A stretch of 61,049 nucleotides of DNA from Gemmatimonadota bacterium (GCA_003222055.1 QHUT01000063.1:1-61049), one strand, 5' to 3'; positions 40,396 through 57,973 are shown, numbered from the stretch's first letter. Numbers and translations are program-made. The notes: generated by a model not told the origin, from the sequence alone.

Positions 40396-41257
40396 AACGA
40401 CAACGGGGGTGCTGCTCTTTCTCTCCGCCATACCCCTATTCCGCCTGTCCGCCCAGTCCCTCGACCCGCTCGCCATCCGGCTCACGAGCATGACCGCCGT
40501 CACCGGGCTCGAGCAGGCGATGACCGACTCGCTCCTCGCCCTGCTTCCGGGCAGCACGCGCGATCGTGCCGGCAACGTCACGCTCACGCTCGGTCAGGGT
40601 TCTCCCAAGCGCCTGCTGCAATGCCCACTCGACGAAGTGGGCTACGTTGTCGGCAACATCACGGGCGACGGCTACGTGTCGTTGCGCCGGGTCGGCGCGC
40701 GCACGACCTATCCGCTGTTCGACCAGCAGCTCGAGGGTCACCGCGTGACCGTGTTCGGCACGAAGGGTCCCGTGCCCGGCGTGGTCGCCGTGAAGTCGAC
40801 GCACCTGACGCGCGGGCGGGTCGCCGCCGGCGCACCCGACCCCGTCTTTACCGTGGACAACGCCTACGTCGACGTGGGCGCCGCCTCGGCCGCCGAAGCG
40901 CGGGCGCTCGGGGTCGACGTGCTCGCACCGGTGTCGCTCACCAAGCGACCGCTCCAGTACGGCGACCGCCTCCTGGCCGGCCCCGGCGCCGGGCGGCGCG
41001 CCGCGTGCGCGGCGCTCGTCGCGGCGGCGCAGAGGCGGCCCAAGGCAAAGGGCACAGTCGTCGTCGCGTTCACGGTGCAGAGCCTGTACGCGGGCAACTC
41101 GGGGCTCGCCAGCGTGAAAGCCCTGCTCGGGCCGTTCGACGACATCAAGACCGCGGGCCTGCCAACGCGGTACACGGATACGGCGGTGGAGACTGTGACG
41201 CTCGCCGAGGTCGACAAGCTGATGCGGGAGATGGTGCAATGGATGGAGGGAAGATGA
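40370..41257 (+). CDS. M42-peptidase paralogue lacking metal ligands
   Basis: 295 residues with the GTG at 40370. A signal peptide (LLFLSAIPLFRLSAQ) and M42-like fold are recognisable by comparison with the next gene: LLQCPLDEVGY here against VVFVAHMDEIGF there, QYGDR against SFDDR, VQSLYAGNSG against VREEIGLEG, and RYTDTAVETV against RYSHSPAEVV. His, Asp, the Glu pair and the last His are all replaced, so zinc binding should be lost. The frame is open to 40256, so the start is uncertain. It overlaps the active paralogue by 4 nt (ATGA). Probably a regulatory or binding subunit, or a decaying duplicate kept in frame. Confidence 0.72.
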   Translation: MSGPRLSVGTTTGVLLFLSAIPLFRLSAQSLDPLAIRLTSMTAVTGLEQAMTDSLLALLPGSTRDRAGNVTLTLGQGSPKRLLQCPLDEVGYVVGNITGDGYVSLRRVGARTTYPLFDQQLEGHRVTVFGTKGPVPGVVAVKSTHLTRGRVAAGAPDPVFTVDNAYVDVGAASAAEARALGVDVLAPVSLTKRPLQYGDRLLAGPGAGRRAACAALVAAAQRRPKAKGTVVVAFTVQSLYAGNSGLASVKALLGPFDDIKTAGLPTRYTDTAVETVTLAEVDKLMREMVQWMEGR

Positions 41258-42348
41258 GGGCGGTCGGAGATGGTATCGTCGCGCTCCTGTTTCTGTCCGC
41301 GAGTCCGCCCGTCCGCCTGTCGGCCCAAGATTCCGCACGCATCGCGGAAGCGCAGTCCGTGCTGGCACCGCTCGTGGAATCCTACGGCGTCTCGGGCGCC
41401 GAAGGCCCGGTGCGCGAGACGGTGAAGCGCCTGTTGCCAGCGTGGGCCAAGACCGAGACCGACACCGCCGGCAACCTGTGGGTACGCCTCGGCCAGGGGA
41501 ACCCCCTGGTCGTGTTCGTGGCGCACATGGACGAGATCGGGTTCCGGGTGACCGCCATCCGCGACGACGGCTCGCTCGACCTCGAGCCGCGGGGCGGCTT
41601 CATAGCGTCGCTGTTCGAGGCGCAGCCGGCGGTGGTGCATGCCGACAAGGGCGACGTGGCCGGCGTGTTCATCCCGCGCGATTCGGGCTTCACGCGGCAC
41701 ACCGGCCCGCCGCCGCGCGTCGACGTGGGAACGACGTCTCGAGCGGCGACCATGGCCCGGGGCGTCAGCCCCGGGGCCACCGTGACGATGCCGAAGCAGT
41801 ACGTCCGCCTCGCGGGCACCCGCGCCACTAGCCGGTCGTTCGACGACCGGGTTGGCGACGCCGCTCAGCTCCTCGCGCTGCGCCACCTGGACCGTGAAGC
41901 CTTGAAGCATCAGGTGATCTTCGTCTGGAGCGTGCGGGAGGAAATCGGGCTCGAGGGAGCGGGCGTGGCGGCTGCGGCGCTGGGGACGGGTCCCCGCCGC
42001 GTGCACGCGATCGACACGTTCGTCTCCGCCGACTCGCCGCTCGAGCTGCCGAACTTCGCGGTGGCACCGATCGGCGCGGGGGCCGTGGCCCGCGCGCTCG
42101 ACAACTCGTCCGTGACACCCCCGGCGTACGTGGACTCCCTCGTCCGGCTCGCCCGCGCGCGCGGCGTGGCGCTGCAGGTCGGCACCACCAACGGCGGCAA
42201 CGACGGCTCGATGTTCACGCCGTACGGCGTGGTGGACGTGGCGCTCGGCTGGCCGCTCCGCTACTCCCACTCCCCCGCCGAGGTGGTGGATCTGAAGGAC
42301 GTGGCGAGCCTCGCGGACCTGGTCCGGGCCATCGCCGAGAGCTGGTGA
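41254..42348 (+). CDS. M42-family aminopeptidase, exported
   Basis: 364 residues. A signal peptide ends near RLSAQ (about residue 24), then an M42 dizinc peptidase domain: VAHMDEIGF (His ligand), SRSFDDRVGD (bridging Asp), WSVREEIGLEG (catalytic and ligand Glu), DTFVSADSPLE, and the final ligand His in RYSHSPAEVVDL. Family members remove N-terminal residues and form large oligomers, usually in the cytosol; an exported form is less usual. The start overlaps the inactive paralogue; the stop overlaps purH (GTGA). Confidence 0.9.
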   Translation: MRAVGDGIVALLFLSASPPVRLSAQDSARIAEAQSVLAPLVESYGVSGAEGPVRETVKRLLPAWAKTETDTAGNLWVRLGQGNPLVVFVAHMDEIGFRVTAIRDDGSLDLEPRGGFIASLFEAQPAVVHADKGDVAGVFIPRDSGFTRHTGPPPRVDVGTTSRAATMARGVSPGATVTMPKQYVRLAGTRATSRSFDDRVGDAAQLLALRHLDREALKHQVIFVWSVREEIGLEGAGVAAAALGTGPRRVHAIDTFVSADSPLELPNFAVAPIGAGAVARALDNSSVTPPAYVDSLVRLARARGVALQVGTTNGGNDGSMFTPYGVVDVALGWPLRYSHSPAEVVDLKDVASLADLVRAIAESW

Positions 42349-43922
42349 GAGCACTGCTGTCGGTCTCGGACAAGCGCGGCGTCGTCGAGTTCGCCCGCGA
42401 GCTGGCCGCGCTCGGCTGGGAGATCGTCTCGACCGGTGGCACGGCCGAGGCACTCCGCCAGGCCGGGCTCGCGGTGATCCCGATCGAACGGGTCACGGGT
42501 TTCCCCGAAATGATGGATGGCCGCGTGAAGACGCTCCATCCCAAGGTCCACGGCGGCCTGCTCGCCCGGCGCGCCCACGCCGGCGACCGCGCCGCGCTGG
42601 CGGAGCACGGTATCACCCCGATCGATCTCGTGGCCGTCAACCTCTATCCGTTTCGCGAGACGGTCGCGAAGCCCGGAGTCGGCTTCGAGCAGGCGATCGA
42701 GCAGATCGACATCGGCGGCCCCTCGATGCTCCGCTCGGCCGCAAAAAACCACCAGGATGTGATCGTCGTCGTCGATCCGGACGATTATCCGGTTGTGATC
42801 GCGGGGCTGAAAGCAGGTGAACTAACCCCGGGAACCCCGGGCTTGCGCCCGGGGTCAGTGAGCCCGGGGTCCCTGGGGTTGCGGCGGGAGCTGGCCACGA
42901 AGGTCTTCGCTCACACCGCCGCCTACGACGCCGCTATCCACGGGTACCTGACCAAAGACGCGCCGGGATGGCCCGAGCGGATCACCCTCGCGCTCGCCCG
43001 CCGCCAGGAGCTGCGCTACGGGGAAAACCCGCATCAGGCGGCCGCGCTGTACGCCGCGTCCGAGCCCGGGATCCGCGACCTGGAGCAGCTCCATGGCAAG
43101 GAGCTGTCGTTCAACAACCTGCTCGACGTGGACGCCGCCGTCGCGGCGGTCGCGCCGTGGGCCGGCTCGGACGCCGTGGCGTGCGTCATCATCAAGCACA
43201 CCACCCCGTGCGGTATCGCGCTGGGGCGCTCGGCCCGCGAGGCGTACGAGCGCGCCTTTTCCACCGACCGCACTTCCGCATTCGGCTCCGTGATCGCCTT
43301 CAACGTCGCCGTCGATCGCGGTGCCGCGGAGGCGATGCGCGACCTGTTCGTGGAGGTGGTGGTGGCCCCCGCGTTCGCGGACGACGCGCTGAGCGTGTTC
43401 CGGGACAAGAAGAACCTGCGTGTCGTGCGGCTGCCGGCGGGCGATGCGGCGGGCTGGGACTACAAGCGTATCCGGGGAGGGTTTCTCGTGCAGGAGCGCT
43501 CCTGCGCGGCACGGGCGGCCGACGAAGCGGGGTGGAAGGTCGTCACCCGGCGCGCTCCCACCGACCCCGAATGGCGGGACCTGCGCTTCGCGTGGGTGGC
43601 CGTGGGGGTGGTCAAGTCGAACGCCATCCTGCTGGCCCGCGACCGGGCGGCGATCGGGATCGGCGCGGGCCAGATGTCGCGCGTGGACGCCTCGTTCCTG
43701 GCAATTCACAAGGCGCGCCAGCAGGGGCACGATCCAGCCGGAGCGGTGTTAGCTTCCGACGCGTTCTTTCCGTTCGCGGACGGTGTAGAAGAAGCGGCTC
43801 GGGCGGGGGTGAGCGCGATCATCCAGCCAGGCGGTTCGGTGAAGGACGCAGCGGTGGTGGCGGCGGCCGATCAGGCGGGGGTGGCGATGGTGTTCACGGG
43901 CATTCGACAGTTCAGACACTGA
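42345..43922 (+). CDS. purH: Bifunctional AICAR formyltransferase / IMP cyclohydrolase
   Basis: 525 residues; last two steps of IMP synthesis. The N-terminal MGS-like cyclohydrolase (1-200) shows [35 protein letters not shown]; the formyltransferase shows [33 protein letters not shown] (Lys-His motif), KSNAILLA and [11 protein letters not shown]. Residues about 158-178 ([13 protein letters not shown]...) lack any counterpart I know in PurH and are encoded by a palindrome. GTG start. Confidence 0.96.
42819..42880 (+). repeat. Palindromic element inserted in frame in purH
   Basis: Core hairpin 42834-42855: ACCCCGGGC, loop TTGC, GCCCGGGGT (9-bp stem), with extra CCCGGGG copies to each side (to 42880). 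Its length keeps the purH frame and adds about 20 Gly/Pro/Ser-rich residues in the linker just before [13 protein letters not shown]. The hairpin matches those at 30888-30953. Confidence 0.75.
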
Positions 43923-43936
43923 CCGGTGGCGAGCGT

Positions 43937-46150
43937 ATGACGGATCTCCGGAGGGCGCCGCACACCGCCGCTCCTGAAAGCCCTCCCTACTTGTGGGCGG
44001 GCCTTGTGGCCGTCGGCACGCTCGTGCTGTACGTGCTCACGCTGGCACCGACCACGCAGTTCTGGGACGCCTCGGAGTACATCGCCGCCGCGCACGCGCT
44101 CGGAATCCCCCATCCTCCCGGCAATCCTTTCTTCATCATCCTGGCGCACGTCTGGGGCTTGCTGCCTCTCGCCGGCGACTACGCCCGACGGATCAATCTC
44201 TTGGCGGCGACGACCAGCGCGGTGACTGCCGGCACCTGGTTCCTCATCGGAGAGCGGTGGCTGCGAGCCATTGTGGCGCCCGTACGTTGGCGGCGCGCCG
44301 TGGCGACGGCGGGGACGCTCGTGGGATTCACGACGTTCACCGTCTGGAATCAGTCGGTCGTGAACGAGAAGGTCTATACGCTGAGCATGCTGACGATCGC
44401 GCTGGTGCTGTGGCTGGCGGTGCGATGGGCCGACCAGCTCGAGGCCACGCGGCGCGACCACCACCTCGTGTTGATCGTGTACCTGCTCGCGCTGTCGGCG
44501 ACCAACCACCTGATGGGCCTCCTGGTGGCGCCCGCGGTCCTGGTCTATGTCCTCGCTACCGATCCCCGGGTGCTCTTCCGCCCGCGGTTCCTCGTCGCGG
44601 CGCTGCTCGTCGCCGTGGTCGGGACGAGCGTCAATCTCTTCATTCCGATTCGGGCGCACCTCGACCCGTATCTCAACCAGGGCGACGCGACCACGTGGCC
44701 GGCGCTCAAGGCCGTCTTGACGCGCGAGCAGTTCGGCAAGCCGTCCGTGTTCGACAACCCGATGTATCCGACGGGGGCCGATAACCCCGGCCACACGCTC
44801 GTCCTGTACGGACAACAGCTGTTGAATTACGTGCAATACTTCACGTGGCAGTTCGGGCGGGATTGGCTGGCGGGACCGCAGCGCGCCCTCGCGGTGCTGT
44901 TCGCGGCGCTGGGACTCCTGGGGGCGCGACGTCATTGGCGCGCGGAGCGTCGGGCCGCCGTCGCCATGACCGCGCTCATGCTCACGTTGACGGTCGCGCT
45001 CGTGTTCTACCTCAACTTCAGGTGGGGCTACTCGCAGCCGTACAGCGCCCCCGGCCTGGAGCACGAGGTCCGCGAACGGGATTACTTCTTCATCGCGTCG
45101 TTCGCCGCGTGGGGCGTGTGGGTAGGCATGGGCCTCGCGACTGTGATGGCATGGATCCAGGAAGCGCTCGCGACCCGCGTTCCAGCTCACGCCCCCGCGC
45201 GGCGGTGGGCGCTGTCGGCAGTCGTCTTGCTCGTCGCCCTCGTCCCTCTCGCCGGCAACCGGCTCACGGCGCCGCGCTCGGGCGAGACCTTGGCGCGCGA
45301 CTACGCGCATGACGTCCTGCAGTCCGTAGACCCGTACGCCCTGTTGGTGACGGCCGGCGACAACGACACGTTCCCCCTGTGGTATGCACAGGAGGTCGAG
45401 GGCGTGCGGAGGGACGTGAGCGTGCTGGTGCTGTCGCTCGCCAACACGGATTGGTACCTGCGCCAGCTGCAGCGCCGCCCGCCGGAGACGTTCGCGCCCG
45501 CCCTGGCGCCGGCGCTGTATCGCGACCAGCGCTGGCCGCGCCCCACGTCCCCGTGGATGAGCCGGTTTTACCTCGACGGGCCGGCGGACACGCTGCCACC
45601 CTATCTGGCGCTGTCGCAGCCCGTCACGGGGCGCCTGGGACCGGTCACCGTCGCCCTCGACCCGAACGCGTTGGGGCGTCCGTATCTCGAGCGCTCCGAT
45701 CTGGCCGTCCTGCAAATCATCAAGGACGAGGTGGGCAGGCGACCGATCTACTTCTCCAGCTCGACCGGCAACTACGCCGACCGGCTCGGCCTCGGGGCCT
45801 ATCTGGTGGGCGAGGGGCTCGTGCGCCGCGTGCTGTCCCGGCCGACGGCGCCGAGCGACAGCGTGCGCCTGCTGCCGGGCCGCGGTTTCGTGAACGTGCC
45901 CCGCACGAGCGCCTTGGCGTTCGGCGTGTACCAGGGCGGCGAGCCGGCGGCCCGCCCACGCCCGCGGGGCTGGGTCGACGTGCCGTCGCAGAACAGCCTG
46001 CTCGGTTATGTCTTCGTGTATGACACCATCGCCGCCGCGCTGGCGGGCCAAGAGCCGGCGCTGGCGGCGCGGGCGGGAGTGCTGCGCGACGCGATCCTTG
46101 CCAACACCACCTACGGCCTCCCCGCCGAGCGGCGCGCCGCCGGCAACTGA
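43937..46150 (+). CDS. DUF2723 / GT117 membrane glycosyltransferase (copy 1)
   Basis: 737 residues. The N-terminal two thirds are membrane-spanning (about ten helices), with the conserved first loop TTQFWDASEYIAAAHALGIPHPPGNP carrying the Asp-Glu of GT-C enzymes. The C-terminal third is soluble, with LLVTAGDNDTFPLWYAQEVEGV. The family (PF11028) includes human TMEM260, a protein O-mannosyltransferase; bacterial members probably use a polyprenyl-linked sugar donor on the outer face. Starts 14 nt after purH; the next gene is a paralogue. Confidence 0.9.
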   Translation: MTDLRRAPHTAAPESPPYLWAGLVAVGTLVLYVLTLAPTTQFWDASEYIAAAHALGIPHPPGNPFFIILAHVWGLLPLAGDYARRINLLAATTSAVTAGTWFLIGERWLRAIVAPVRWRRAVATAGTLVGFTTFTVWNQSVVNEKVYTLSMLTIALVLWLAVRWADQLEATRRDHHLVLIVYLLALSATNHLMGLLVAPAVLVYVLATDPRVLFRPRFLVAALLVAVVGTSVNLFIPIRAHLDPYLNQGDATTWPALKAVLTREQFGKPSVFDNPMYPTGADNPGHTLVLYGQQLLNYVQYFTWQFGRDWLAGPQRALAVLFAALGLLGARRHWRAERRAAVAMTALMLTLTVALVFYLNFRWGYSQPYSAPGLEHEVRERDYFFIASFAAWGVWVGMGLATVMAWIQEALATRVPAHAPARRWALSAVVLLVALVPLAGNRLTAPRSGETLARDYAHDVLQSVDPYALLVTAGDNDTFPLWYAQEVEGVRRDVSVLVLSLANTDWYLRQLQRRPPETFAPALAPALYRDQRWPRPTSPWMSRFYLDGPADTLPPYLALSQPVTGRLGPVTVALDPNALGRPYLERSDLAVLQIIKDEVGRRPIYFSSSTGNYADRLGLGAYLVGEGLVRRVLSRPTAPSDSVRLLPGRGFVNVPRTSALAFGVYQGGEPAARPRPRGWVDVPSQNSLLGYVFVYDTIAAALAGQEPALAARAGVLRDAILANTTYGLPAERRAAGN

Positions 46151-46165
46151 TCCCAACGAGCGAGC

Positions 46166-48505
46166 ATGACGACTGATCAATTGACGAGGCTGGACAGGAC
46201 TGTAGACCACCTGGCGTCGTCCGCGGAAGTGGAGCGCCCGCCGTATCTGTGGGCAGGCTGCGTCGCGCTCGGCGCCCTCATCCTGTACGTCGCGACGCTC
46301 GCCCCGACCACCCAGTTCTGGGACACGTCGGAATACATCGCCGCGGCGTACGTGCTCGGCATCCCGCACCCACCGGGGAATCCGCTGTTCACGCTGATCG
46401 CCCACACCTGGGGCCTCTTGCCCCTGGCGGCGGCGTATGCCGAGCGGATCAACCTGCTCGCCGCGGTGACGAGCGCGGTCGCGGCGGGGTGCTGGTTCCT
46501 GGTGGGCGAGCGGTGGATGCGGAGCTGGGTACCGGCCCGGCTGCCGCGGCGGCTCGCCGCCGTGGCCGGCGCGCTCAGCGCGGCGACCGCGTTCACGGTG
46601 TGGAACCAGTCGGTGGTGAACGAGAAGGTGTACACGCTGTCGCTCTTGTCGATCGCACTGGTGCTGTGGCTCATCGTGCGCTGGGACGACCAGCCCCCCG
46701 GCGAAGGGCACGATCACCATCTCCTGATGATCGTGTACCTGCTGGCGCTGACTTCCACGAACCACATGATGGGAGTGCTGGTGGGCCCCGTGGTGATGGT
46801 GCTCTTGTATCCACCGCTCAAGCGGGAGCGCCCCGTAGGGCTCGCCGCGCGGCGGGTCGAGTGGTCGCAATGGTTCGTCTTCTGCAGCGCGTACGCGCTG
46901 ATCGTGGCGAGCGGGCTCGAGAGCTCCACGCCCTTGAAGCTCGCCGCGGTGCTGTTCGCGGCGGCGCTGGTGTACGCGGTTGCTTACGCGCGCAACGGCG
47001 ACTTCGCGCTCGCGGTGCTGCTGGTGGCGGCCGTGGGCGTGTCGGTGTACCTGTTCCTGCCGATCCGGGCGGCGCATTTCCCGGCGATCAACGAGGGCGA
47101 GCCCACTACGCGAGCGGCTTTGTGGGACGTGCTCACGCGCCAGCAGTACGGCAAGCCGCCCGTGTGGCAGCGCCAGGCGACGCCCCAGGCGCAGATCGGC
47201 ATGTGGATCCAGTACTTCACATGGCAGTGGGGGCGCGACTTGGCCACCGGGTGGCGCGGGGCGGTTGCCGTGATGTTCGCGTTCGTGGGCTCGCTGGGCG
47301 CGTACCGCCACTGGAAGGCCGACCGCCGCACGGCCGTCGCCATGACGACGCTGATGGCGACGCTCACGCTGCTGTTGATCTTCTACCTCAACTTCAAGTA
47401 CGGCTACTCGCAGCGGCCCGACCTGCCGCAGCCGCTGCACGAGGTGCGCGAGCGCGACTACTTCTTCATCGCCTCGTTCGCGCTGTGGGGCGTGTGGGTC
47501 GGCATGGGACTCGCGACCCTGATGGAATGGCTGACGGAGTCGCTCGAGACCCGGGAGCCCGACCCGGCCCGCCGCTGGCTGCTCGCGACTCCGGTGCTGG
47601 CGCTCGCGCTCGTGCCGCTGGTCGGCAACCACCTCACCGCCTCGCGCCAGGGCGAGACGCTGGCGCGCGACTTCGCCTACGACATGCTGCAGTCGGTCGA
47701 GCCGTACGGCGTGCTCGTGACCGCGGGGGACAACGACACGTTCCCTCTGTGGTACGCGCAGGAAGTGGAGCACATCCGCCAGGACGTGACGGTCGTGAAC
47801 CTGTCGCTCGCCAACACCGACTGGTACCTGCGGCAGCTGCAGCGCCGGCCGCTCGCCACGTTCGACTCGACCGCCGCCCCGTCGATCTACCGCGGGCAGG
47901 CGTGGCCCAAGCCGGCGGGCCGCCTGCTCGAGTACACCGACGAGCAGCTCGCGCACCTCGAGCCGGTGTACTGGCTCGACCAGAAGCGACTCGTGAACCT
48001 GGGCGGGGTCAGCGTCTCGCTCGATCCGCAACAGCTCGGCCGTCAGTATCTCGAGCGGGCCGACGTGATCGTGCTCGAAGCGATCAAGGACCAGATGGGC
48101 AAGCGGCCCATCTACTTTTCCCGCACCGTCGGCCCGTATGCCGACCTGTTCGGCCTGAGCGACTACTTGGAGGGTCAAGGGTTCGCGCGCAAGCTGCACC
48201 GGGAGCCACTCACGCCATCCGACAGCATCGTGCCGCTCGGGGCCGGGCTCGGGGCCATCAACCTCCCCCGCACCACGGCGCTCGCGTTCGACGTGTATCA
48301 TCGCGCGGCTGCCGGGCGCCTCCGGCCGCGGGGCTGGGTGGACCGGCCGTCGGAATCGATCCTCGCCACCTACGGGATCGTGTACCAGGCGCTGGCACAG
48401 GTGCTGCGGCAGCGCAAGCCGGAGCTGGCGACCCGGGCGCTCGTGGTCGCCGACTCGGTCTTCAAGAACACGACCTACGGGTTCAACCCGCCGAGCGAGC
48501 GCTAG
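46166..48505 (+). CDS. DUF2723 / GT117 membrane glycosyltransferase (copy 2)
   Basis: 779 residues, about half identical in the conserved blocks to copy 1: TTQFWDTSEYIAAAYVLGIPHPPGNP, VWNQSVVNEKVYTL, FYLNFKYGYSQ, VRERDYFFIASFALWGVW and TAGDNDTFPLWYAQEVE. It has an extra N-tail (25 residues) and an additional loop with two extra membrane segments (about 225-280: WFVFCSAYALIVASG, LAAVLFAAALVYAVAYA) not found in copy 1. 15 nt separate the two, so they are co-transcribed and likely result from a tandem duplication. Last gene of the plus-strand run. Confidence 0.9.
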   Translation: MTTDQLTRLDRTVDHLASSAEVERPPYLWAGCVALGALILYVATLAPTTQFWDTSEYIAAAYVLGIPHPPGNPLFTLIAHTWGLLPLAAAYAERINLLAAVTSAVAAGCWFLVGERWMRSWVPARLPRRLAAVAGALSAATAFTVWNQSVVNEKVYTLSLLSIALVLWLIVRWDDQPPGEGHDHHLLMIVYLLALTSTNHMMGVLVGPVVMVLLYPPLKRERPVGLAARRVEWSQWFVFCSAYALIVASGLESSTPLKLAAVLFAAALVYAVAYARNGDFALAVLLVAAVGVSVYLFLPIRAAHFPAINEGEPTTRAALWDVLTRQQYGKPPVWQRQATPQAQIGMWIQYFTWQWGRDLATGWRGAVAVMFAFVGSLGAYRHWKADRRTAVAMTTLMATLTLLLIFYLNFKYGYSQRPDLPQPLHEVRERDYFFIASFALWGVWVGMGLATLMEWLTESLETREPDPARRWLLATPVLALALVPLVGNHLTASRQGETLARDFAYDMLQSVEPYGVLVTAGDNDTFPLWYAQEVEHIRQDVTVVNLSLANTDWYLRQLQRRPLATFDSTAAPSIYRGQAWPKPAGRLLEYTDEQLAHLEPVYWLDQKRLVNLGGVSVSLDPQQLGRQYLERADVIVLEAIKDQMGKRPIYFSRTVGPYADLFGLSDYLEGQGFARKLHREPLTPSDSIVPLGAGLGAINLPRTTALAFDVYHRAAAGRLRPRGWVDRPSESILATYGIVYQALAQVLRQRKPELATRALVVADSVFKNTTYGFNPPSER

Positions 48506-48658
48506 TCGCGGCTCGGTTACTTCGGCGTGGCGTGCTTCTTTACGTCGATCGGAAGGGCTAGGCGTGGCTGCGCCGCCCCACAGGAACACATCTCCGCGTG
48601 ACCATACGTCGCCGTGAAGCGTCTTCAGGATAGCCAAAACACCAAGAGCGGTATCTCC

Positions 48659-48940
48659 ATGAGTGCAGGGACCCAGACGCGTCCGCCGACGGGCGGCGAC
48701 GATGTCTTCATCACGTACCTCGATCAGAGTGACAGCTTCGCCCTCGGCGTGGAGTTCGGCGAGTTTCTCTGCGCGCTCGGACAGGGCTACGAAGCCGTCG
48801 GGGGCTACTTTTCTGCGCGACTCGAGGCGCAGCTGCTCGTCGCCGCCTCGCGGTTGGGCTATGTGCGAGAGGCGTGGGCCGAGCGCGGTGACGGGTCTTG
48901 TTTGGGGCGGTTCAGGCGAGCGCAAAGCGACCCCTTGTAG
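48659..48940 (+). CDS. Small hypothetical protein (93 aa)
   Basis: A 93-residue ORF, MSAGTQTRPPTGGDDVFITY then LDQSDSFALGVEFGEFLCALG, mixed alpha/beta, no signal or membrane helix. An in-frame ATG exists at 48614. The ribosome site is weak. It resembles a real short protein more than noise, because a Phe/Tyr/Leu core is spaced regularly, but the family is not recognised. It faces the glycosyltransferase/kinase operon (stop 37 nt before that operon's end). Confidence 0.5.
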   Translation: MSAGTQTRPPTGGDDVFITYLDQSDSFALGVEFGEFLCALGQGYEAVGGYFSARLEAQLLVAASRLGYVREAWAERGDGSCLGRFRRAQSDPL

Positions 48941-48977
48941 GACGTGTCCCATTGCCACAGGGTGCGGCCGAGGTGCT

Positions 48978-50402
48978 TCATGCCCATCGTGGGGACAGGG
49001 CGCGGCAGGCGCTCCCGACCGCGGCGCTCACCATGCGCCGCCACCCGGGCTCCTGGCTGCGGAACAGGCCGGTCGCCACTTCCAGCAAGGCTCCGGCGCA
49101 CTGCAGCGCAAATCTCTCGCGCCACTCGGCTGGTACGTGGGCGAAGTACGCGTCAATGAACGCCGCGGCGCCCACCTGCGCCCGCTCCGCTGGCACCGCA
49201 TCGAGTCCGACGCGACCCGTTAGATAGGCGTAGAGACGGGCGGGGTCACGGACGGGATCGCCCATGGCGACGCGATCGAAATCGATGATGGTGACCCGAT
49301 CGCCTGCAATGAACAGGTGATCGGCCTTCAAGTCGCCGTGGATCGGCGTCGGCGGCGCTTCCGTCAGGTCGGCGATGACCGTGGCGGCAACGGCCCGGAT
49401 GTCGTCGCTCACCTCCGGGCACGCCCAATCGAGCAGCGAGGCGGCCCGCTCGACGTCGTGGATCTGCTCTGCCAGGGGTTCGTGCGGCCCAATGGCTCGA
49501 CCGCTCAGGTGGAACGCGGCGAGGGCGCGCGCGGCGGCGCGCACCGCCGGCATCGGGTCGTCGCGTCCTCGCAGGAGCTCGAGCAACGCCGTGCCGGGCG
49601 CCTCGTCGACGACGAGCGTGTCGAGCTCGTCGAGATAGGCGAGTGGCCGCACGACGCCGTACGCCGATCCGGCCTCGGCATGCCCCGCGCAGAGCGTCTC
49701 CATCAACTGGAAGGTGGCGGCGCCACGCCCGGGACGGCACACCTTCACGTAGCAGCGACGCGTCTGGGAGCGTCTCGACCGCATGTCCCGAAGCTCCAGC
49801 GTGTAGCGCAGCGCGGCGCCGATTTCGGAGCGATAACGCAGCAGCTCGAGGCGCCCGGCGCCGGCGCGCCACTCACCCGCACCCGCCTGCGCCCGCAGGA
49901 GCGGCGCGAACTCCTGGCCCTCGGTTGCGAGCACCCGGCCGAGGCCGCGGAGTTGGCGATCATACGGAAAGACTTGCACCAACATCTCGAGCTCGGGGAC
50001 GTAGGCGAGTGGCTCGAACGTGCGCCACCGATCGGGAATCGAGCGCTTCGGATCCGTGGCCGCGAGTTCCCGCCACAGGCGCTCGGCGTCCCCCGGCCGC
50101 GCGTACACGACCGCGGTGACCCACTGGTCGAACGCGCCTCCCGTCCCCCGGTCGATCACGCGCAGCGAGTACTGGAGGACGCAGCGCGATGTGGACTGCC
50201 GGCACCGAAACCGGACCGGGACGCAGGCCTCGATGTGATAGGCCTTCCCGGCGACCGGCTCCAGGTGAGCGCGGAACACCTCGAGCATCCGCGTGGGATC
50301 GCTCGCGATCTCGAGCTGCGGAAAGTCCGGATCGACGGGAAACCCTGGCTTGCCAGGTTCGGCGGCAGGCGCGTCTTGGTGCACGGCGGGTGACGCGATC
50401 AT
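48978..50402 (-). CDS. APH-fold phosphotransferase A (474 aa)
   Basis: Aminoglycoside-phosphotransferase/choline-kinase-like fold. The N-lobe Lys is in RRCYVKVCR; the catalytic loop is HGDLKADH; the metal-binding IIDFDR follows. The N-terminal ~190 residues form an extra domain that itself has strands resembling a second, incomplete kinase N-lobe (FRCRQSTSRCVLQYSLRV). It is longer than the usual 250-350 residues. Last gene of a four-gene operon; ATGA overlap with kinase B. Substrate unknown; a drug-resistance role should not be assumed. Confidence 0.85.
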   Translation of the reverse strand: MIASPAVHQDAPAAEPGKPGFPVDPDFPQLEIASDPTRMLEVFRAHLEPVAGKAYHIEACVPVRFRCRQSTSRCVLQYSLRVIDRGTGGAFDQWVTAVVYARPGDAERLWRELAATDPKRSIPDRWRTFEPLAYVPELEMLVQVFPYDRQLRGLGRVLATEGQEFAPLLRAQAGAGEWRAGAGRLELLRYRSEIGAALRYTLELRDMRSRRSQTRRCYVKVCRPGRGAATFQLMETLCAGHAEAGSAYGVVRPLAYLDELDTLVVDEAPGTALLELLRGRDDPMPAVRAAARALAAFHLSGRAIGPHEPLAEQIHDVERAASLLDWACPEVSDDIRAVAATVIADLTEAPPTPIHGDLKADHLFIAGDRVTIIDFDRVAMGDPVRDPARLYAYLTGRVGLDAVPAERAQVGAAAFIDAYFAHVPAEWRERFALQCAGALLEVATGLFRSQEPGWRRMVSAAVGSACRALSPRWA

Positions 50403-51412
50403 CCCAAGCTCGACCCGACCGCGGCGGCAATCTCTTTCAGTAAGCGCTCCGCCTCAGCCCGACGCCGTTCGAGCGCCGCGGGCTCCGGGTGGCGAGTGGT
50501 GTCGAACAGCAACGAATGAATCTTGCGCAACAGCGTGGCCCGCTCATACCAGCCGACCCGATCCGCGAGCCCCGGCTCGCGGCCCGCGTGACGCGCGTAG
50601 GCATCGATCAGGGTCGCGCGCAACGTGGCGAAGTCCCCGAGCCGGCCGGGCTTGCGCAGCGTGCTGCGCCGGAACTGGGTCAGGACGGTCCCGAGGTCGA
50701 GCGCCGGATCGCCGAGCGTCGCGCGGTCGAAGTCGAAGATCACAACCCGGTCACCACGCCACAGCAGTTGCGCGGGACCGAAATCGCCGTGCAGGAACAC
50801 CGGCGCTCGAGGGTCGACGGGAGGCTCTCGTTCCAGCCGGGCGAAGGCGCGCCGCAGCACGCCCCCTGCCTCGGGAACCCGCTCGCACATCGCGGCGACA
50901 CGAGCCCGTACCTGCTCCAGGACCACGGCGGGCGTCGTTATGCAGGGGAGCGCGGCCGGCGGACTGACCGCGTGCAGCGCCGCCAACGCGCGTGCGATGG
51001 CCTCCAGCACGACGGCGCCCGAGCGCGCGAGCGCCGGAGTCAGCTCCTCGCCTGTCTCGTACGTCATGAGGACGAGGTGGCGCGGGGCGTAGTAGCCGAG
51101 CAGCGTGGGTACGACAAACGCGCCCCGCCGCCAGCCGTCGCTGCGGGCGAGACCCTCGAGCAGGCCTGCGACGCGCCGCGCCTCGACATCCTCGTCGTAG
51201 AACTTCCCCACCCAATCGAGGCGGTGCGGGTCGGAGCGGCCCGAGAAGCCGGCGTCGAGCTCGAAGTGCACCACGCGGCGTCGTCCATGCCGCGTGATCG
51301 ACGTCGCGGTCCACGCGTCGAGCCGGGCTGCGGGACCACACACGTCACCGAGCGTCGCGCGCAAGGCGACTTCCAGCTCGGGAGAGGCGAGCGTGACCGG
51401 CGCGCTGCTCAT
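50399..51412 (-). CDS. APH-fold phosphotransferase B (337 aa)
   Basis: Second APH-like kinase. The N-lobe has LDWVGKFYDED (Lys), the hinge-like VLMTYETGEEL, the catalytic HGDFGPAQL and the metal site IFDFDRATLGDPALDLG. Low similarity to its neighbours outside these motifs, so it is not a recent duplicate. ATG at 51412 overlaps kinase C (ATGA), its own stop overlaps kinase A. Confidence 0.88.
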   Translation of the reverse strand: MSSAPVTLASPELEVALRATLGDVCGPAARLDAWTATSITRHGRRRVVHFELDAGFSGRSDPHRLDWVGKFYDEDVEARRVAGLLEGLARSDGWRRGAFVVPTLLGYYAPRHLVLMTYETGEELTPALARSGAVVLEAIARALAALHAVSPPAALPCITTPAVVLEQVRARVAAMCERVPEAGGVLRRAFARLEREPPVDPRAPVFLHGDFGPAQLLWRGDRVVIFDFDRATLGDPALDLGTVLTQFRRSTLRKPGRLGDFATLRATLIDAYARHAGREPGLADRVGWYERATLLRKIHSLLFDTTRHPEPAALERRRAEAERLLKEIAAAVGSSLG

Positions 51413-52416
51413 GGGACACTCACGGCAGCGGTCGCCATCTCCTCGAGCGCCGCCTGGGCCCGCCGGGCCAGTGCGACGGCGAGCCGGGGCCACCCGGCGG
51501 GGTCGGTCCGGCGCACCGTATGGATCTTGCGGGCAAGCGTGAGCGCGCGGTAAAACGCCACGTTGCGGGCCGATACCGCCGGCATCGACGTGCGGTAGGC
51601 CTCGAGAAACGTGGCCCCCAATCGATCGGCGCGCGCCGCCCGCGCGGGATCGACGAGCCCCCCCCGCTCGAGCTGCGCCAGGAAATGGCCCACGTCGTAG
51701 GCCGCATCGGTATAGCCGAAGGCGTCCAGGTCGAGCAGTACGAGACGCTCGCCCGTCCACAGGAACTGTCCCGCCCACAGGTCCCCGTGCACCGGTGCGG
51801 GCTGCGCCGGCTCGAGCGAGCTCACGGCGTCCGCGAGCGCCGACACCAGGGGTTCCATCACGGGGGCCGCCTCGGGCCAGCGCCGCCGCAGTCGCTCGCA
51901 CCGCGCGGCCACCTGCGCGATGAGCTGTTCCGGGGTGGTCGGCGGCTCCGGGGCCAGCGCGAGGCGATGCAAGCTCGCGGTGAGACACGCCGCCCGCCGA
52001 AACAGCTCCGGGGCCCGGCCATCCTCGATGTCGGTGAGGCAGCGCCCGTCCACCCACGGGAAGACCAGCAGGCGCTCGTACGCGACGTAGCCAATCGGCA
52101 GACACACTCCGTCCGGCGCCATCTCGTGGCACGCGGCCAGGGCCTGCGCGTGCGCCCACACCCGAGCGCCGAAGTCGTCGGCGTACGCCTTGAGCGCATA
52201 CGAGCGCAACGCGCCGAGCCGCGTGCGGACGCGGGCCCGGAGGACGAAGCGATCGGGGTGTACGCTCTCGACGCTACACGCCACGTCGGCGGCGGCGATG
52301 TCGGTCGAGAGCGCGGAGCGCAGGACGGTCAGGACCGCGGTCGGCTGTTCCAGGCGCGCGCGTTGCGCGCAGAGCAACGCGCGCAGTTCGCGGCTCGGAG
52401 TGAACTCGAGGCGCAT
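51409..52416 (-). CDS. APH-fold phosphotransferase C (335 aa)
   Basis: Third APH-like kinase: N-lobe Lys in SYALKAYADD, VFPWVDGRCL linker, catalytic HGDLWAGQF, and LLDLDAFGYTDAAYDVG in the metal site. As in kinase B the Asn of HxDxxxxN is Gln. It follows the glycosyltransferase gene by 4 nt, so expression is coupled. The three kinases together with the glycosyltransferase suggest successive phosphorylations of a glycosylated metabolite or envelope precursor. Confidence 0.88.
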   Translation of the reverse strand: MRLEFTPSRELRALLCAQRARLEQPTAVLTVLRSALSTDIAAADVACSVESVHPDRFVLRARVRTRLGALRSYALKAYADDFGARVWAHAQALAACHEMAPDGVCLPIGYVAYERLLVFPWVDGRCLTDIEDGRAPELFRRAACLTASLHRLALAPEPPTTPEQLIAQVAARCERLRRRWPEAAPVMEPLVSALADAVSSLEPAQPAPVHGDLWAGQFLWTGERLVLLDLDAFGYTDAAYDVGHFLAQLERGGLVDPARAARADRLGATFLEAYRTSMPAVSARNVAFYRALTLARKIHTVRRTDPAGWPRLAVALARRAQAALEEMATAAVSVP

Positions 52417-52420
52417 CGCG

Positions 52421-53635
52421 TCAGTCTCCCCCGAGCCAACGCGCGAGGTAGGCCGTGAGGCGCGCCGCGCCGTCGAACGATGGGATGACCTCGCGCACGC
52501 GGCGCGCGTGGGCGGCGCGATCGCAGCCGAGCGCCCACTCGATGGCCTCGGCGAGGCGGTCCGGCGCGAGCTCGCGCGGGTGGACGCACGAGACGAGACC
52601 CCGCGCCGCCAGCAGCTCGGCGCGAATCGTTTGCTCGACCTTGTCAGTCGCCCGCGGCACGATGACCATCGGTCGGGCGGCGGCCAACGCCTCGCACACG
52701 CTGTTGTAGCCGCCCATGCTCACTACCGCGTCGGCGGCCGCGAACAGGCGCAGCGTATCGGCTTCGAGGACGACGCGGCACGACGCCGTGGCCCGACGCT
52801 CGAGCTCCGCCCGCTGCTCCGCCGGCATGAAGGGCCCCGTGACGACGACCGCGCGGAGCTCGGGGCGCTTCGCCGCCAACCGCTCGAGGGCGGCGACCGC
52901 CGCATCGAGGACCGGGAACCCGTCGCTGCCGCTCCCGACGGTCGCGAGCACCAGGGCCGCGCCCTCGGGCAGACCGAGCTCGCGCCGCACCACCGCGGGA
53001 TCAACCCGCGGGGGCTCGCGCACGATGTAGCCGCAGTAGTGCAGCTTGGGCCGGACGCCCTGTGGAATGGCGTAGGCCTCGGCCACGTCGTGGAGCGCGG
53101 GCGAGCCGTACACGGCGATGCCGTCGTACAGATGTTCGAGCGCGTCGTACACGCCGAGCTCGCGCCACTGCCCGCGAATTCGCTCCGGGTCGTCCATGAT
53201 GTCGCGCAGTCCGAACACGAATCGCGTGTCGGGACGCGCGGCCTTCAGCGCGCGGAGGCCGGCGGCGAACTCGCCCTTGGCGCCGAGCGGCTCGTGGTCC
53301 ACCAGCACCAAGTCCGGGGCCAGCCCGAGCGCGGCGTCCCTGAGGATCGTGCCACGGAGCTCGCGGAAGTGCCGCTTCGCGTCCTCTTCCTCCAGCGTCG
53401 TCCGCTGCCAGCCGTCCGGGGTGAGTAGGGAGGGCAGCTTGATGTAGTCGCACCGCTCGGGCAAAGTGAAATGGCCCGCGAGCGCGGACTTGGTCGCGAG
53501 GTACACGACTGCGTTCGGGTAGCGCGCCAGCAGATGGCGGGCGATGGTCAGACTACGGGTAATGTGGCCGAGACCCTGCCGGTCCTGCGCGTACAGGAGC
53601 AGCGTGCGGACCCCGGGCGACCGAACCGGCGTCAT
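52421..53635 (-). CDS. MurG-like (GT28 type) glycosyltransferase
   Basis: 404 residues with a GT-B two-domain plan. N-terminal LLYAQDRQGLGHITRSLTIAR (Gly-rich donor/acceptor loop with His), middle linker, and C-terminal Rossmann domain with VLATVGSGSDGFPVL, VSMGGYNSVCEALAAARPMVIVPR (donor-binding GGYN...E). The family includes MurG and glycolipid synthases acting on UDP-sugars. First gene of the operon with three APH-fold kinases. The acceptor is unknown. Confidence 0.85.
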   Translation of the reverse strand: MTPVRSPGVRTLLLYAQDRQGLGHITRSLTIARHLLARYPNAVVYLATKSALAGHFTLPERCDYIKLPSLLTPDGWQRTTLEEEDAKRHFRELRGTILRDAALGLAPDLVLVDHEPLGAKGEFAAGLRALKAARPDTRFVFGLRDIMDDPERIRGQWRELGVYDALEHLYDGIAVYGSPALHDVAEAYAIPQGVRPKLHYCGYIVREPPRVDPAVVRRELGLPEGAALVLATVGSGSDGFPVLDAAVAALERLAAKRPELRAVVVTGPFMPAEQRAELERRATASCRVVLEADTLRLFAAADAVVSMGGYNSVCEALAAARPMVIVPRATDKVEQTIRAELLAARGLVSCVHPRELAPDRLAEAIEWALGCDRAAHARRVREVIPSFDGAARLTAYLARWLGGD

Positions 53636-54237
53636 GGACGACCCTCGGCGGGCGCGACGCTCATGGCCACGTCGGTGCAGATGCGGGGGACGCGCCCGTC
53701 CGTAAACGATCGTCCTAACAACAACCCGATTCGCACCACCGCCTCCCTAAAACCGCGCACAGCCGCGGGTCGGGGGCAGGGCTCGCAAGTCGCGTACCAG
53801 TTGGAAACGTCGCCTTCACGTCGCTCATGACCAGGTACCGGGGTATTTTCCCACTCGCTCCGTCGCGCTAGCCCTACACCAGGTTGCGGAGTTGCCCCGA
53901 CGCGCAGGCGCCACGGGTGGGCTCGGACGCCGCTTGTCCGGCGGTCACTGCGGCTCACGCGCCGCGCTCCGCGTTCCCCGGCCCCCGCGTGCCCCGGCCG
54001 CAGCAGCGCGCTCAGCGTTGGGGTTGGGTGCTGGCTCGTCGTTGCTCCAAGACCGGCATCGCCCAGCGCGGCGATTTGATCGGTGGAGAGGCTGAGCCAG
54101 TCCTCGAGGGCCGAGCACCAAGGCGACGGGATTGATTGGTAAGGCAGGCCGTGGCGAAGCAATTTACTGGTACAGTTAGGGCGCAATTGACCCCTTCTCA
54201 GGGTTTTCGCGGTCGCTAAGTTCAGCAACAGCAAGTG
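53636..54237. other. 602-nt region with no recognisable gene
   Basis: Between the glycosyltransferase operon start and tRNA-Ser. Both strands carry open frames, but their translations are rich in Arg, Pro and Thr without domain patterns. It presumably holds the operon promoter and the tRNA promoter. A short plus-strand open stretch just before the tRNA (about 54146-54220, reading VAKQFTGTVRAQLTPSQG then FRGR) might be a remnant; I cannot assign it. Confidence 0.5.
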
Positions 54238-54328: not shown

Positions 54329-54481
54329 GTCAAGTGATCGGCAAGGGTCGACCCCCTGACCACGCTGGGTTGATAACACTCCGGCCGAGGCTCACCGGGG
54401 CCTCACCACACCGGAAAGCGCGCGGTGCCTGGTGTCCCGGGACTTGAAACTGGCTTGAGACCGCGGGGCGAGGGTACGCCC

Positions 54482-54988
54482 ATGCAAGCGGTCACCCTGT
54501 TCGGCTACGCCTTCCTCTCGAACGTCGCGCTCGCCGTGCTCCCGCACGAGCCGGCCGTCATTTGGTACGGCGCGCGGCTCGGCGTCTGGCCCACCACGCT
54601 CGTCGCGACCGCCGGCACGGTAGCGGCCGCGCTGGTGGACCACCGGGTGTTTGTCCCGCTGATCCGACGGTTTCGCGATGCAAGCGCGCCCTCTCAGGGC
54701 GCGACTTGGGCGGATCGGTTCTTTCGTCGTTTCCCGTTCGCGACGATCGCTCTTTCCGGGCTCACGCCACTTCCCTTCTTCCCCTTCAAAGCGCTCGCCT
54801 TCACCACGGGTTACCCGCTGGAGCGCTACCTCGCCGCGGTCGCGGCGCGCTCGGCGCCGCGCTACGCCCTGCTGGCGTGGTTCGGCGTGGCAGTGCGGCT
54901 GCCGACCTGGCTCATCGCCGGGTTGTTCGTGCTGCTGCTGATCCCGTCGTTGCGGATGCTGCCGTGGCTCCGGCCAAGCGCGAGCTGA
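54482..54988 (+). CDS. VTT-domain (DedA-like) membrane protein
   Basis: 168 residues with the ATG at 54482. The VTT/SNARE-associated pattern is seen: FLSNVALAVLPHEPAVIWYG, FVPLIRRFRD, FFRRFPFATIALSGLTPLPFFPFKALAFTTGYP (the reentrant loop and PxxxxK region), and a final membrane helix WLIAGLFVLLLIP. DedA-superfamily members flip or scramble lipid carriers and affect membrane homeostasis. It overlaps the CDP-alcohol phosphatidyltransferase gene by 25 nt, so a lipid role is likely. Confidence 0.85.
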   Translation: MQAVTLFGYAFLSNVALAVLPHEPAVIWYGARLGVWPTTLVATAGTVAAALVDHRVFVPLIRRFRDASAPSQGATWADRFFRRFPFATIALSGLTPLPFFPFKALAFTTGYPLERYLAAVAARSAPRYALLAWFGVAVRLPTWLIAGLFVLLLIPSLRMLPWLRPSAS

Positions 54989-55674
54989 CGTTTCTCCTGG
55001 CCGACCCGGAGCGACGGCTGCTGCGCGCCGTGGCGGCGCGGCTGCCGGCGGTCGTGACCCCCGACCACCTCACCGCGTTGGGCGTGCTCGGCGCGCTCGG
55101 TGTGGGTGCCGCGTACGCGCTCTCGCGCGTCAGCGCGGGATGGCTGTGGGCCGGGAGTGCGTGTCTCGTCGTGCAGTGGCTGGGGGACAGCCTCGACGGC
55201 ACATTGGCCCGCGTGCGCGGCACCGAGCGGCCGCGCTACGGCTACTATGTCGACCACGTCGTCGACGCGTTTTCGACCGCCGTCATCGGGGTCGGCGTGG
55301 CACTGTCGCCGTATGTGAGCCCGTGCGTGGCGCTGGGGCTGGTGATCGTCTACCTCGGCCTGTCGATCAACGTCTATCTCGAATCGAACGTGTTCGGGGT
55401 GTTCCGCCTCGCCTATGGCCCGCTCGGTCCGACCGAGATTCGTATCATGCTGATTGCCGCGAACGGCGTGCTCGCGGTCCTCGCTCCGGGACCGACCCTG
55501 TACCTCGTCGCCAACGCGACGCTGGTGCTGCTCGGCATCGGGATGGTGGCGACCCTGGTCGCGAGAGTCGCACAGAACCTATCGCGGCTCGCGCGGGAGG
55601 AGCCCTATGTCACGACTCCTCACACCTCACACCTCGCGGCAACTCGGCGCCTCGGCATCTCGGCGTCTGCTTAG
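54964..55674 (+). CDS. CDP-alcohol phosphatidyltransferase family protein
   Basis: 236 residues with GTG at 54964, about six membrane helices. The CDP-OH-P motif is complete: DGTLARVRGTERPRYGYYVDHVVD (here shown as key residues D-G-x2-A-R-x9-G-x3-D-x3-D). It transfers a phosphoalcohol from CDP to an alcohol in phospholipid synthesis; the alcohol (glycerol-P, inositol-P or other) is unknown. The last 20 residues (from TTPHTSHLAATRR) are encoded by a run of CTCGGC repeats and probably not functional. Confidence 0.88.
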   Translation: MAPAKRELTFLLADPERRLLRAVAARLPAVVTPDHLTALGVLGALGVGAAYALSRVSAGWLWAGSACLVVQWLGDSLDGTLARVRGTERPRYGYYVDHVVDAFSTAVIGVGVALSPYVSPCVALGLVIVYLGLSINVYLESNVFGVFRLAYGPLGPTEIRIMLIAANGVLAVLAPGPTLYLVANATLVLLGIGMVATLVARVAQNLSRLAREEPYVTTPHTSHLAATRRLGISASA

Positions 55675-56035: not shown

Positions 56036-57973
56036 ATGATCCGTTTCACACCAAGCTCTCTTCTCCGCCCGGGTCGCTGGGTCGCCGCACTCCTCATGGC
56101 GGCTGCCTGCACGGCGGACCAAGGGGTGACGGGCGTATCGGGGGCCGGTCCCCTGCTCTACGTCTTGAACAGCAGTGGCAACAGCGTCACTGCCTACGCA
56201 GCGGCTGCGAGCGGGGACGTCGTCCCGCGGACCGCGATTTTGGGCGGCGGCAGCAGTGCCGGACTCTATTACCCCGCCGGCGTGGCCCTGGACACGGCCG
56301 GGCGCCTCTACGTTGCCAACTGCTGCGACCAAGTCCTCGTCTTCGCCCCCGGCGCGACCGGAAACGCGGCACCAATCCACGCGATTAGCGGCGCCCGCAC
56401 GGACCTGGCGTACCCGACCGGCATCGCCTTCGATGCGAAGGGCAACCTCTACGTCTCGAACCTCGCGGCGGGCCCGAGGATCACGGCTTACGCGCCCGGC
56501 GCGGAGGGAAACGTCGCCCCGATCGACACGATCGCCGGTGCCAACACAGGACTCGCCAGACCGACCGGCATCGCCTTCGATACCGCGGGTCACCTCTACG
56601 TGGCGAACGGTGGCACAATCTCGAACCCCGCGGGCGAGATCCTGATCTATGCACCGGGGGCGAACGGGAACGTGGGGCCGATCGACTCGATCGCCGGCAG
56701 CAATACCGGCCTCTACTCCCCGAGCTGGATCGCGTTCGATGCCGCGGGCAACCTGTACGTCACCAATTGGAGTCCGACAAGCACGTCGTTCGGCATCACC
56801 GTGTACGCGGCCGGGGCGCACGGCAACGCCGCGCCGATTCGCACGATCGCGGGCAGCAATACCGGACTCACCGGCGCCGCTGGCCTCACGCTCGACGGCG
56901 GCGGCAACCTCTACGTCGCCAACAGCGGGGCGAACAGTGTGACCGTCTATGCACCGGGTGCGACGGGGAACACCACGCCGACTACCACGATCCGGGGAAG
57001 CAATACCGGGCTCGCCGAGCCGGGGACGATCGCGCGGGACGTCGGGGGCAAGCTGTACGTCGTCAGCAGCATCCTCGGGCAGATCACGGTGTACGCGCCG
57101 GGGGCGAGTGGGGACGCGACCCCGACACGGACGATCGTAGCGGACCGCCGGCCGTCGTTCGACCGGGATTGGGGAATCGCCCGGGACGCCCTGGGAGACC
57201 TCTATGTCACGAGCCCGGATAACAACACGGTAACGGAGTATTCGGCGGGGGCGAGCGGGCACGCGACCCCGCGTGCCACGATTCCGACCGTCTCGCCCAC
57301 GCAGCAAACGGGATACCCCACGGGAATTACGGCCGACGCGAGCGGCAACCTCTACGTCACCAACAATCAGTACCGAAGTGAAGGAAGCTGTTGTTACCCG
57401 AGCATTACAATATTCGCTCCCAGTGCCCTGGGGCACACGGACACAGCTGCCGCGGTGGACCCTTTCCGCACGATCACCGGCAGTGCCACCGGATTGAACG
57501 CCCCGGTCGCGATCGCCCGCGATGCCGCGGGCAACCTCTATGTCGCGAATCGGGGAGGAACCTGCTGCGGCGTTGGCAACAGCATCACTGTCTATGCCGC
57601 CGCTGCGAACGGCAATGCGGCGCCGGCGGCCACGATCGCCGGCACCCTGACGGGGCTCAACGCCCCAAGCGGCCTGGCGCTCGATCGCCAAAGGAGGATC
57701 TATGTCGCCAACACCGGCGGCAACAGCATCACGATCTACGCACCGGGGACGAGCGGCAACGCGTCTCCCCTCACGACGATCGTGGGAGCGAGCACCGGCC
57801 TGAACGGTCCGACGGGCATTGCCCTCGACGCGGACGGGAACCTGTACGTAGCTAACACCCTCGGCAACAGCATCACGGTCTATGCCCCCGGGGCGAGCGG
57901 GAACGCGGCGCCGTTCGCGACGATCAGCGGTGGCCGGACTGGGCTGAACGGTCCGGTCGGGATCACGTTCTGA
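56036..57973 (+). CDS. NHL-repeat-like beta-propeller lipoprotein
   Basis: 645 residues with a lipobox MAAAC (Cys25). About ten repeats of 50-60 residues follow, each with the pattern GLxxPTGIAFDxxGNLYVANxxxNSITVYAPGAxGNAAPxxTIxG. This is NHL-like sequence that folds as one or two six-bladed propellers. The pattern is unusually uniform, indicating recent repeat expansion. Cys pairs (NCCD, SCCY, TCCG) interrupt three blades, perhaps for disulfides or metal. A GGAGG site lies 9 nt before the ATG. Role probably extracellular binding or scaffold; not recognised further. Confidence 0.85.
   Translation: MIRFTPSSLLRPGRWVAALLMAAACTADQGVTGVSGAGPLLYVLNSSGNSVTAYAAAASGDVVPRTAILGGGSSAGLYYPAGVALDTAGRLYVANCCDQVLVFAPGATGNAAPIHAISGARTDLAYPTGIAFDAKGNLYVSNLAAGPRITAYAPGAEGNVAPIDTIAGANTGLARPTGIAFDTAGHLYVANGGTISNPAGEILIYAPGANGNVGPIDSIAGSNTGLYSPSWIAFDAAGNLYVTNWSPTSTSFGITVYAAGAHGNAAPIRTIAGSNTGLTGAAGLTLDGGGNLYVANSGANSVTVYAPGATGNTTPTTTIRGSNTGLAEPGTIARDVGGKLYVVSSILGQITVYAPGASGDATPTRTIVADRRPSFDRDWGIARDALGDLYVTSPDNNTVTEYSAGASGHATPRATIPTVSPTQQTGYPTGITADASGNLYVTNNQYRSEGSCCYPSITIFAPSALGHTDTAAAVDPFRTITGSATGLNAPVAIARDAAGNLYVANRGGTCCGVGNSITVYAAAANGNAAPAATIAGTLTGLNAPSGLALDRQRRIYVANTGGNSITIYAPGTSGNASPLTTIVGASTGLNGPTGIALDADGNLYVANTLGNSITVYAPGASGNAAPFATISGGRTGLNGPVGITF

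Follow-up and report, generated by a model that had tools for sequence, protein, structure and literature searches.

We analyzed a 61,049-nt stretch of DNA from a Gemmatimonadota bacterium, referred to here as the window. On its minus strand a glycosyltransferase gene, GT1, is followed by the genes of three kinases of the APH fold in the order KC, KB and KA (Table 1). Four nucleotides (cgcg) lie between the GT1 stop and the KC start, and the KC/KB and KB/KA junctions are both ATGA overlaps. The coordinates and junctions of the operon in the original prediction, a glycosyltransferase separated by 4 nt from kinases C, B and A with ATGA overlaps, were borne out.

Table 1. Features of the operon and of its upstream side in the window.
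Feature	Position	Strand	Description
GT1	52421..53635	-	GT-B glycosyltransferase, 404 aa, MurG/MJ1255-like (PF04101)
KC	51409..52416	-	APH-fold kinase (predicted fold), 335 aa, invariant HGDxxxGQ
KB	50399..51412	-	APH-fold kinase, 337 aa
KA	48978..50402	-	APH-fold kinase, 474 aa, predicted duplicated N-lobe + C-lobe, invariant HxDxKxDH
Extra N-lobe-like domain of KA (residues 52-150)	49953..50249	-	without ATP-binding Lys
ATP-grasp 5'-end remnant	53692..53766	-	upstream of GT1; ATP-grasp precedes GT2 in complete clusters

Just past the 3' end of the operon, two tandem TMEM260-like (protein O-mannosyltransferase-like) genes were found on the opposite strand (42968-48505), and these are syntenic in the sister species. 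Genes for a VTT-domain protein and a CDP-alcohol phosphatidyltransferase (54425-55674, plus strand) diverge from the operon across tRNA-Ser(TGA); they were rejected as operon members because of this divergence and because the syntenic block of the sister species ends before them. A 645-aa protein of NHL-type repeats, beta-propeller-like, is encoded at 56036-57973. A SelA (selenocysteine synthase) domain is encoded at 37261-38604, in an open frame that begins far upstream, and no tRNA-Sec was reported within the window. ARAGORN also called a 93-nt tRNA-Cys (38782-38874) within the reading frame of a HAD-type phosphatase (38597-39163); the call was discarded as probably false, having no Rfam support and folding no better than shuffled sequences.

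GT1 matched Glyco_tran_28_C (PF04101) above the Pfam cut-off (6e-10, 39.8 bits; gathering score 22), and stayed below the MurG cut-off of NCBIfam (TIGR01133, 32.8 bits against a curated 250). MurG and the MJ1255/VC2487 family have the GT28 C-terminal domain in common with GT1 and are its best full-family NCBIfam matches, but GT1 scored only 32-33 bits against their cut-offs of 250 and 196. Homologous glycosyltransferases at 30-37% identity were found in rhizobial and Sulfitobacter GT/ABC clusters (H15, H20 and H28), where further glycosyltransferases and a large ABC protein stand beside them; unlike the window operon, these clusters had no annotated APH-fold kinases within the stretches viewed.

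KB and KA were assigned to Pfam APH (PF01636, gathering score 23.2) at 79.9 bits (3e-22) and 53.4 bits (4e-14), respectively, and KC had no Pfam match above cut-off by sequence. The AlphaFold model of KC (pLDDT 87) showed the APH-type kinase fold over its length, with matches to MTR kinase, LxmK, maltokinase and LicA at Z 22.5-19 (best Z 22.5). On this predicted structure KC is an APH-fold kinase despite the absent Pfam match. The three kinases are about 27-34% identical to each other, and KC is present as a single copy in the genome, in the window operon only.

In a motif table of 11-14 homologues each, the N-lobe Lys, the HxD and the Mg-binding Asp were kept in KA, KB and KC, in agreement with the Lys and catalytic HGD that the original prediction had read in each kinase. 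It had also stated that the Asn of HxDxxxxN is Gln or His in all three; this stood for KC (Gln in 14/14 aligned homologues) and for KA (His in 11/11), and KB proved to be variable at the site, with Gln, Asn or His among its homologues. This Asn is usual, not universal, in the APH family, and KC and KA depart from it. Maltokinases carry HGDxHLGQ, with Gln at the Asn position as in KC, so that Gln there is no argument alone for inactivity, and known active APH members also deviate at this Asn. Judged from these motifs, the deviation appears compatible with APH membership and activity and does not exclude either.

None of the three kinases reached any NCBIfam equivalog cut-off of known substrate, so that, as far as tested, none falls in an established family of that kind; had one done so, the original prediction would have been refuted. 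The best NCBIfam match of all three was LxmK (NF038156), at about 31-45 bits against a cut-off of 315. KB scored 30.2 bits against the APH(3') aminoglycoside resistance kinase (NF033068, cut-off 205), which was not among the NCBIfam matches of KA and KC. Maltokinase and glucosamine kinase resemble KC (Z 20.4 to both) and KA (Z 16-17) in overall fold, but are only 14-18% identical to the window kinases.

KA differs from the other two in its N-terminal part. In the model of KA, built on a shallow alignment of 11 (pLDDT 77.5), the elements b1-b3/aC/b4-b5 occur at residues 55-144 and again at residues 178-266, followed by the C-lobe. When the two segments were compared as profiles, the first N-lobe aligned with residues 176-275 at a probability of 92% (E 6.6e-7; the profiles are of low diversity). 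In the predicted model the APH-type fold, at Z about 17, covers residues 149-474, mainly the part spanned by the fold matches, and a profile search of the PDB with KA gave no match. The search of plasmids with KA returned distant relatives only; for those from Manganitrophus plasmids the alignment begins at residue 22-29 and extends to 410-424. Because they align from residue 22-29 onward, the architecture with two N-lobes seems to be old. The N-terminal part of maltokinase is cystatin-like (PMC4306142), in contrast to the repeated kinase N-lobe of KA. If this holds, the small-molecule kinases would gain, with KA, a form whose N-lobe is duplicated.

The genes of the operon recur in larger clusters. 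A glycosyltransferase scan of genome contigs gave 22 loci in soil MAGs of several phyla, with blocks whole or cut by contig ends and GT1 identities of 35-94%, mostly 60-94%. The arrangement usually seen is [OM barrel]-[ATP-grasp]-GT2-GT1-KC-KB-ABC exporter (MsbA-like)-KA-[KD], where the OM barrel is a DUF5916/CBM9 outer-membrane protein. The core GT2-GT1-KC-KB-ABC-KA was present in most loci with enough sequence, and genes in the same order were found in MAGs labelled Gemmatimonadota, Betaproteobacteria, Verrucomicrobia, Rokubacteria, Chloroflexi and Eisenbacteria. Since the gene order recurs in other phyla and the four frames are open with dN/dS of 0.20-0.50, the association of GT1, KC, KB and KA is real, beyond chance. 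The kinases have a shared rather than an unrelated context elsewhere, and this joint context, conserved over many loci and phyla, upheld the earlier view of three kinases and a glycosyltransferase as one functional unit. The same operon had been taken to encode a multi-step pathway; it is one multi-gene unit but not the whole pathway, for homologous clusters also include a second glycosyltransferase, the ATP-grasp enzyme, the MsbA-like exporter, the outer-membrane barrel and as many as two additional kinases. A literature search for the gene combination, with subscription papers outside its scope, found no description of such a cluster, and the recurring gene set is apparently undescribed so far.

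Two euryarchaeal MAGs hold the cluster in a form without KC, and in one of the two the ABC protein is a different one. The archaeal copies adjoin a HerA-type helicase gene and their upstream genes are common to both contigs, which argues for a real archaeal location. Matches to the KA profile were infrequent: 8 of 298 genomes of Gemmatimonadota, 2 of 398 of Pseudomonadota, 1 of 241 in the phylum of the Verrucomicrobia-labelled MAG and 1 of 194 in that of the archaeal MAG, with the seed genome counted each time. The GT1 tree was at odds with phylum labels, Betaproteobacteria and Gemmatimonadota copies being mixed in one fully supported group. MAG binning error may be a partial cause of the cross-phylum spread; the best reading would be a cluster that is rare and mobile across bacteria and archaea. 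The cluster has diversified on one Rokubacteria contig (L052:3800-15130), where two ABC genes and two GT1-like genes accompany several stretches of KA-like kinase. In two betaproteobacterial MAGs (L005 and L009), genes of a beta-propeller phytase (assignment to PF02333 tested in L009) and a metallophosphoesterase lie a few kb off, downstream of KD.

Only GT1, KC, KB and KA are present in the window and in its sister species (L022 = L044), where the ATP-grasp, GT2 and ABC genes are lacking. The remnant upstream of GT1, read from 53766 to 53692, encodes AAVRGFREAVVRIGLLLGRSFTDGR, with 60% identity over 25 aa to the start of an ATP-grasp protein encoded on another contig of the same genome, C73 (E 5e-6); the sister species has a remnant that decayed differently and ends in a stop. 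Since distant homologous loci carry an ABC gene close to KA, its absence here is best read as a loss. Relative to the larger cluster, the window operon is a reduced derivative. Positions 40977-53988 are colinear and about 91% identical between the two species, and dN/dS was 0.20 for GT1, 0.50 for KC, 0.34 for KB and 0.40 for KA, with no stops (dS about 0.13-0.17, Fisher p from 3e-3 to 3e-11). The four remaining genes are under purifying selection, less constrained than the neighboring TMEM260-like gene (dN/dS 0.09).

Contig C73 carries ATP-grasp-GT2-GT1-KB-ABC-KA, without KC, and the sister species also has a locus of this type (L045). The window and C73 loci jointly make up the full core set. 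A duplication of the window locus followed by complementary gene loss was dropped as an explanation, since the GT1 tree places C73 with the archaeal copies (97/92 support), which likewise have no KC, and not with the window copy. From this grouping, C73 looks to have been acquired separately from the window locus. The KB proteins of the C73-type loci are 57% identical between the sister species, with dS of 0.72 against 0.13-0.34 for the neighbors, which suggests a single kinase gene that was exchanged or is fast-evolving. At the DNA level these KB genes (L026:6547-7530 and L045:4153-5085) are about 70% identical and the neighbor genes 86-95%.

The exporter is absent from the window operon, and an MsbA-like ABC gene is found in most homologous clusters and on C73; its product is nearest to MsbA, below the MsbA cut-off. 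The ATP-grasp enzyme matched RimK/LysX ligases and inositol phosphate kinases alike. Contexts of a glycan type were found around more distant homologues. The Ca. Manganitrophus plasmids (CP114557, CP114560 and CP114562) have a GT2-like gene, GT4, an "alginate lyase family" protein, KA/KE-like kinases, alginate export and an ABC protein at 55-63% identity. A Pseudomonadota chromosome (L059) has a KA homologue, heparinase II/III, an ABC exporter, two GT28-type glycosyltransferases, alginate export, a deacetylase, UDP-glucose dehydrogenase and an NAD-dependent epimerase. These acidic exopolysaccharide-type loci resemble the window-type clusters in GT28-type glycosyltransferases, a KA-like kinase with an extra N-terminal region and an MsbA-like exporter, but they add GT4 enzymes, a heparinase/alginate-lyase family protein and an alginate-export protein, and L059 adds the deacetylase, the UDP-glucose dehydrogenase and the epimerase. 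None of them has the KC-KB-KA trio, and the window itself has no exporter. At L059:5106-6659, a C-terminal APH kinase is joined to an N-terminal region that is nucleotidyltransferase-like by eye and had no Pfam match. GT4/GT-A enzymes lie beside ABC and kinases in L051 and L050, and in L020 a UDP-glucose dehydrogenase gene is directly upstream of GT2.

We give about an even chance (roughly 50%) to the reading that a phosphorylated glycan or glycolipid is assembled by a rare mobile cluster, of which the operon is a reduced but still working copy. The two glycosyltransferases of the full cluster, both of the MurG/MJ1255 type, would attach sugars to an acceptor or carrier. Three to four APH-fold kinases would place phosphate on sugar or alcohol groups, either of the molecule as it grows or of the units from which it is built, the ATP-grasp enzyme would add a further group by an amide bond or a phosphate, and passage of the product through the inner membrane would fall to the MsbA-like exporter. 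With only GT1, KC, KB and KA to contribute, the window copy would depend on other machinery for export of the product; the C73 cluster, which itself has no KC, possibly provides this machinery, so that the two loci possibly cooperate. We infer this cooperation, as well as the order of the steps and the identification of the product as a glycan. A phosphorylated glycan or glycolipid is favored because distant clusters with a glycosyltransferase, a KA-like kinase and ABC carry exopolysaccharide genes, and because of the UDP-glucose dehydrogenase of L020. The conserved core block, the likeness of the exporter to MsbA, the remnant together with the synteny, the purifying selection and the single copy of KC also speak for the reading as a whole. 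Against it, the core block has no polymerase, flippase, initiating transferase or nucleotide-sugar enzyme, and formation of a polymer is for this reason not claimed. Most of the glycan-type context is drawn from homologues of 22-38% identity (ABC 30-63%), and the distant clusters may make another product than the window-type cluster.

An antibiotic or polyol had been suggested in the original prediction as the phosphorylated product, and neither received specific support; a surface glycan or glycolipid is what the context of the distant homologues indicates. Successive phosphorylation, as suggested there too, may occur. A small secreted metabolite, glycosylated, phosphorylated and antibiotic-like, for which the kinases would serve in tailoring or self-protection and ABC as an efflux pump, has perhaps one chance in a handful. 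Such clusters typically show sporadic cross-phylum spread, corramycin, amicoumacin and macrolide kinases are among the APH-fold relatives, and the kinases diverge fast, with the KB allele at C73 possibly replaced between the sister species. No scaffold-forming enzyme (PKS, NRPS or cyclitol synthase) was recognized in any cluster seen, however, and the exporter has MsbA, not drug pumps, as its nearest relative, with the distant homologues located among polysaccharide genes.

We regard as improbable a glycosylated inositol or polyol phosphate, made with the ATP-grasp enzyme as an inositol-phosphate kinase alongside the APH-fold kinases. The enzyme matches Ins134_P3_kin above the Pfam cut-off as well as ITPK structures, phytase and phosphoesterase genes lie near some loci, and CDP-alcohol phosphatidyltransferase genes are found both on a Manganitrophus plasmid and close to the window locus. 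Yet RimK/LysX ligases match equally well, the enzyme lacks the Asn of the DxN motif of ITPK, the flanking phosphatases differ from locus to locus, and the ATP-grasp gene was lost from the window copy. Slightly less probable still is a decaying, now functionless leftover of a once complete cluster: the missing ATP-grasp, GT2 and ABC genes, the remnant upstream and the dN/dS of KC, the highest of the four, would agree with it, but four frames intact in two species at the divergence and selection given above make a vestige unlikely. Maturation of a RiPP, with LxmK/TvaE-like kinases targeting Ser/Thr residues in a precursor peptide that the glycosyltransferases would glycosylate, is very improbable. 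The fold matches do include LxmK and TvaE, and LxmK, a class V lanthipeptide kinase, is the best NCBIfam match, in the C-lobe. Its score is far below cut-off, however, other APH families fit the fold equally well, and no precursor and no dedicated lyase or HopA1-type partner was recognized in the clusters looked at.

We tentatively propose, with the odds rather against us, that the phosphorylated glycan or glycolipid cluster represents a new class, mobile in bacteria and archaea, by which a multiply phosphorylated glycoconjugate is made and exported with three to four dedicated APH-fold kinases, among them KA with a new two-N-lobe architecture, and that the pathway is split in this genus over two separately acquired loci. 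What would be new is the unusual kinase complement, within the known kind of glycan assembly and export clusters. If this is right, a phosphorylated surface or secreted sugar compound would be common to uncultured soil bacteria and archaea, and two glycosyltransferases, three kinases, an ATP-grasp enzyme and an exporter would form a compact set for biochemical reconstitution. The kinase trio would also offer a way to ask how substrates are shared out among several related kinases of a single pathway.
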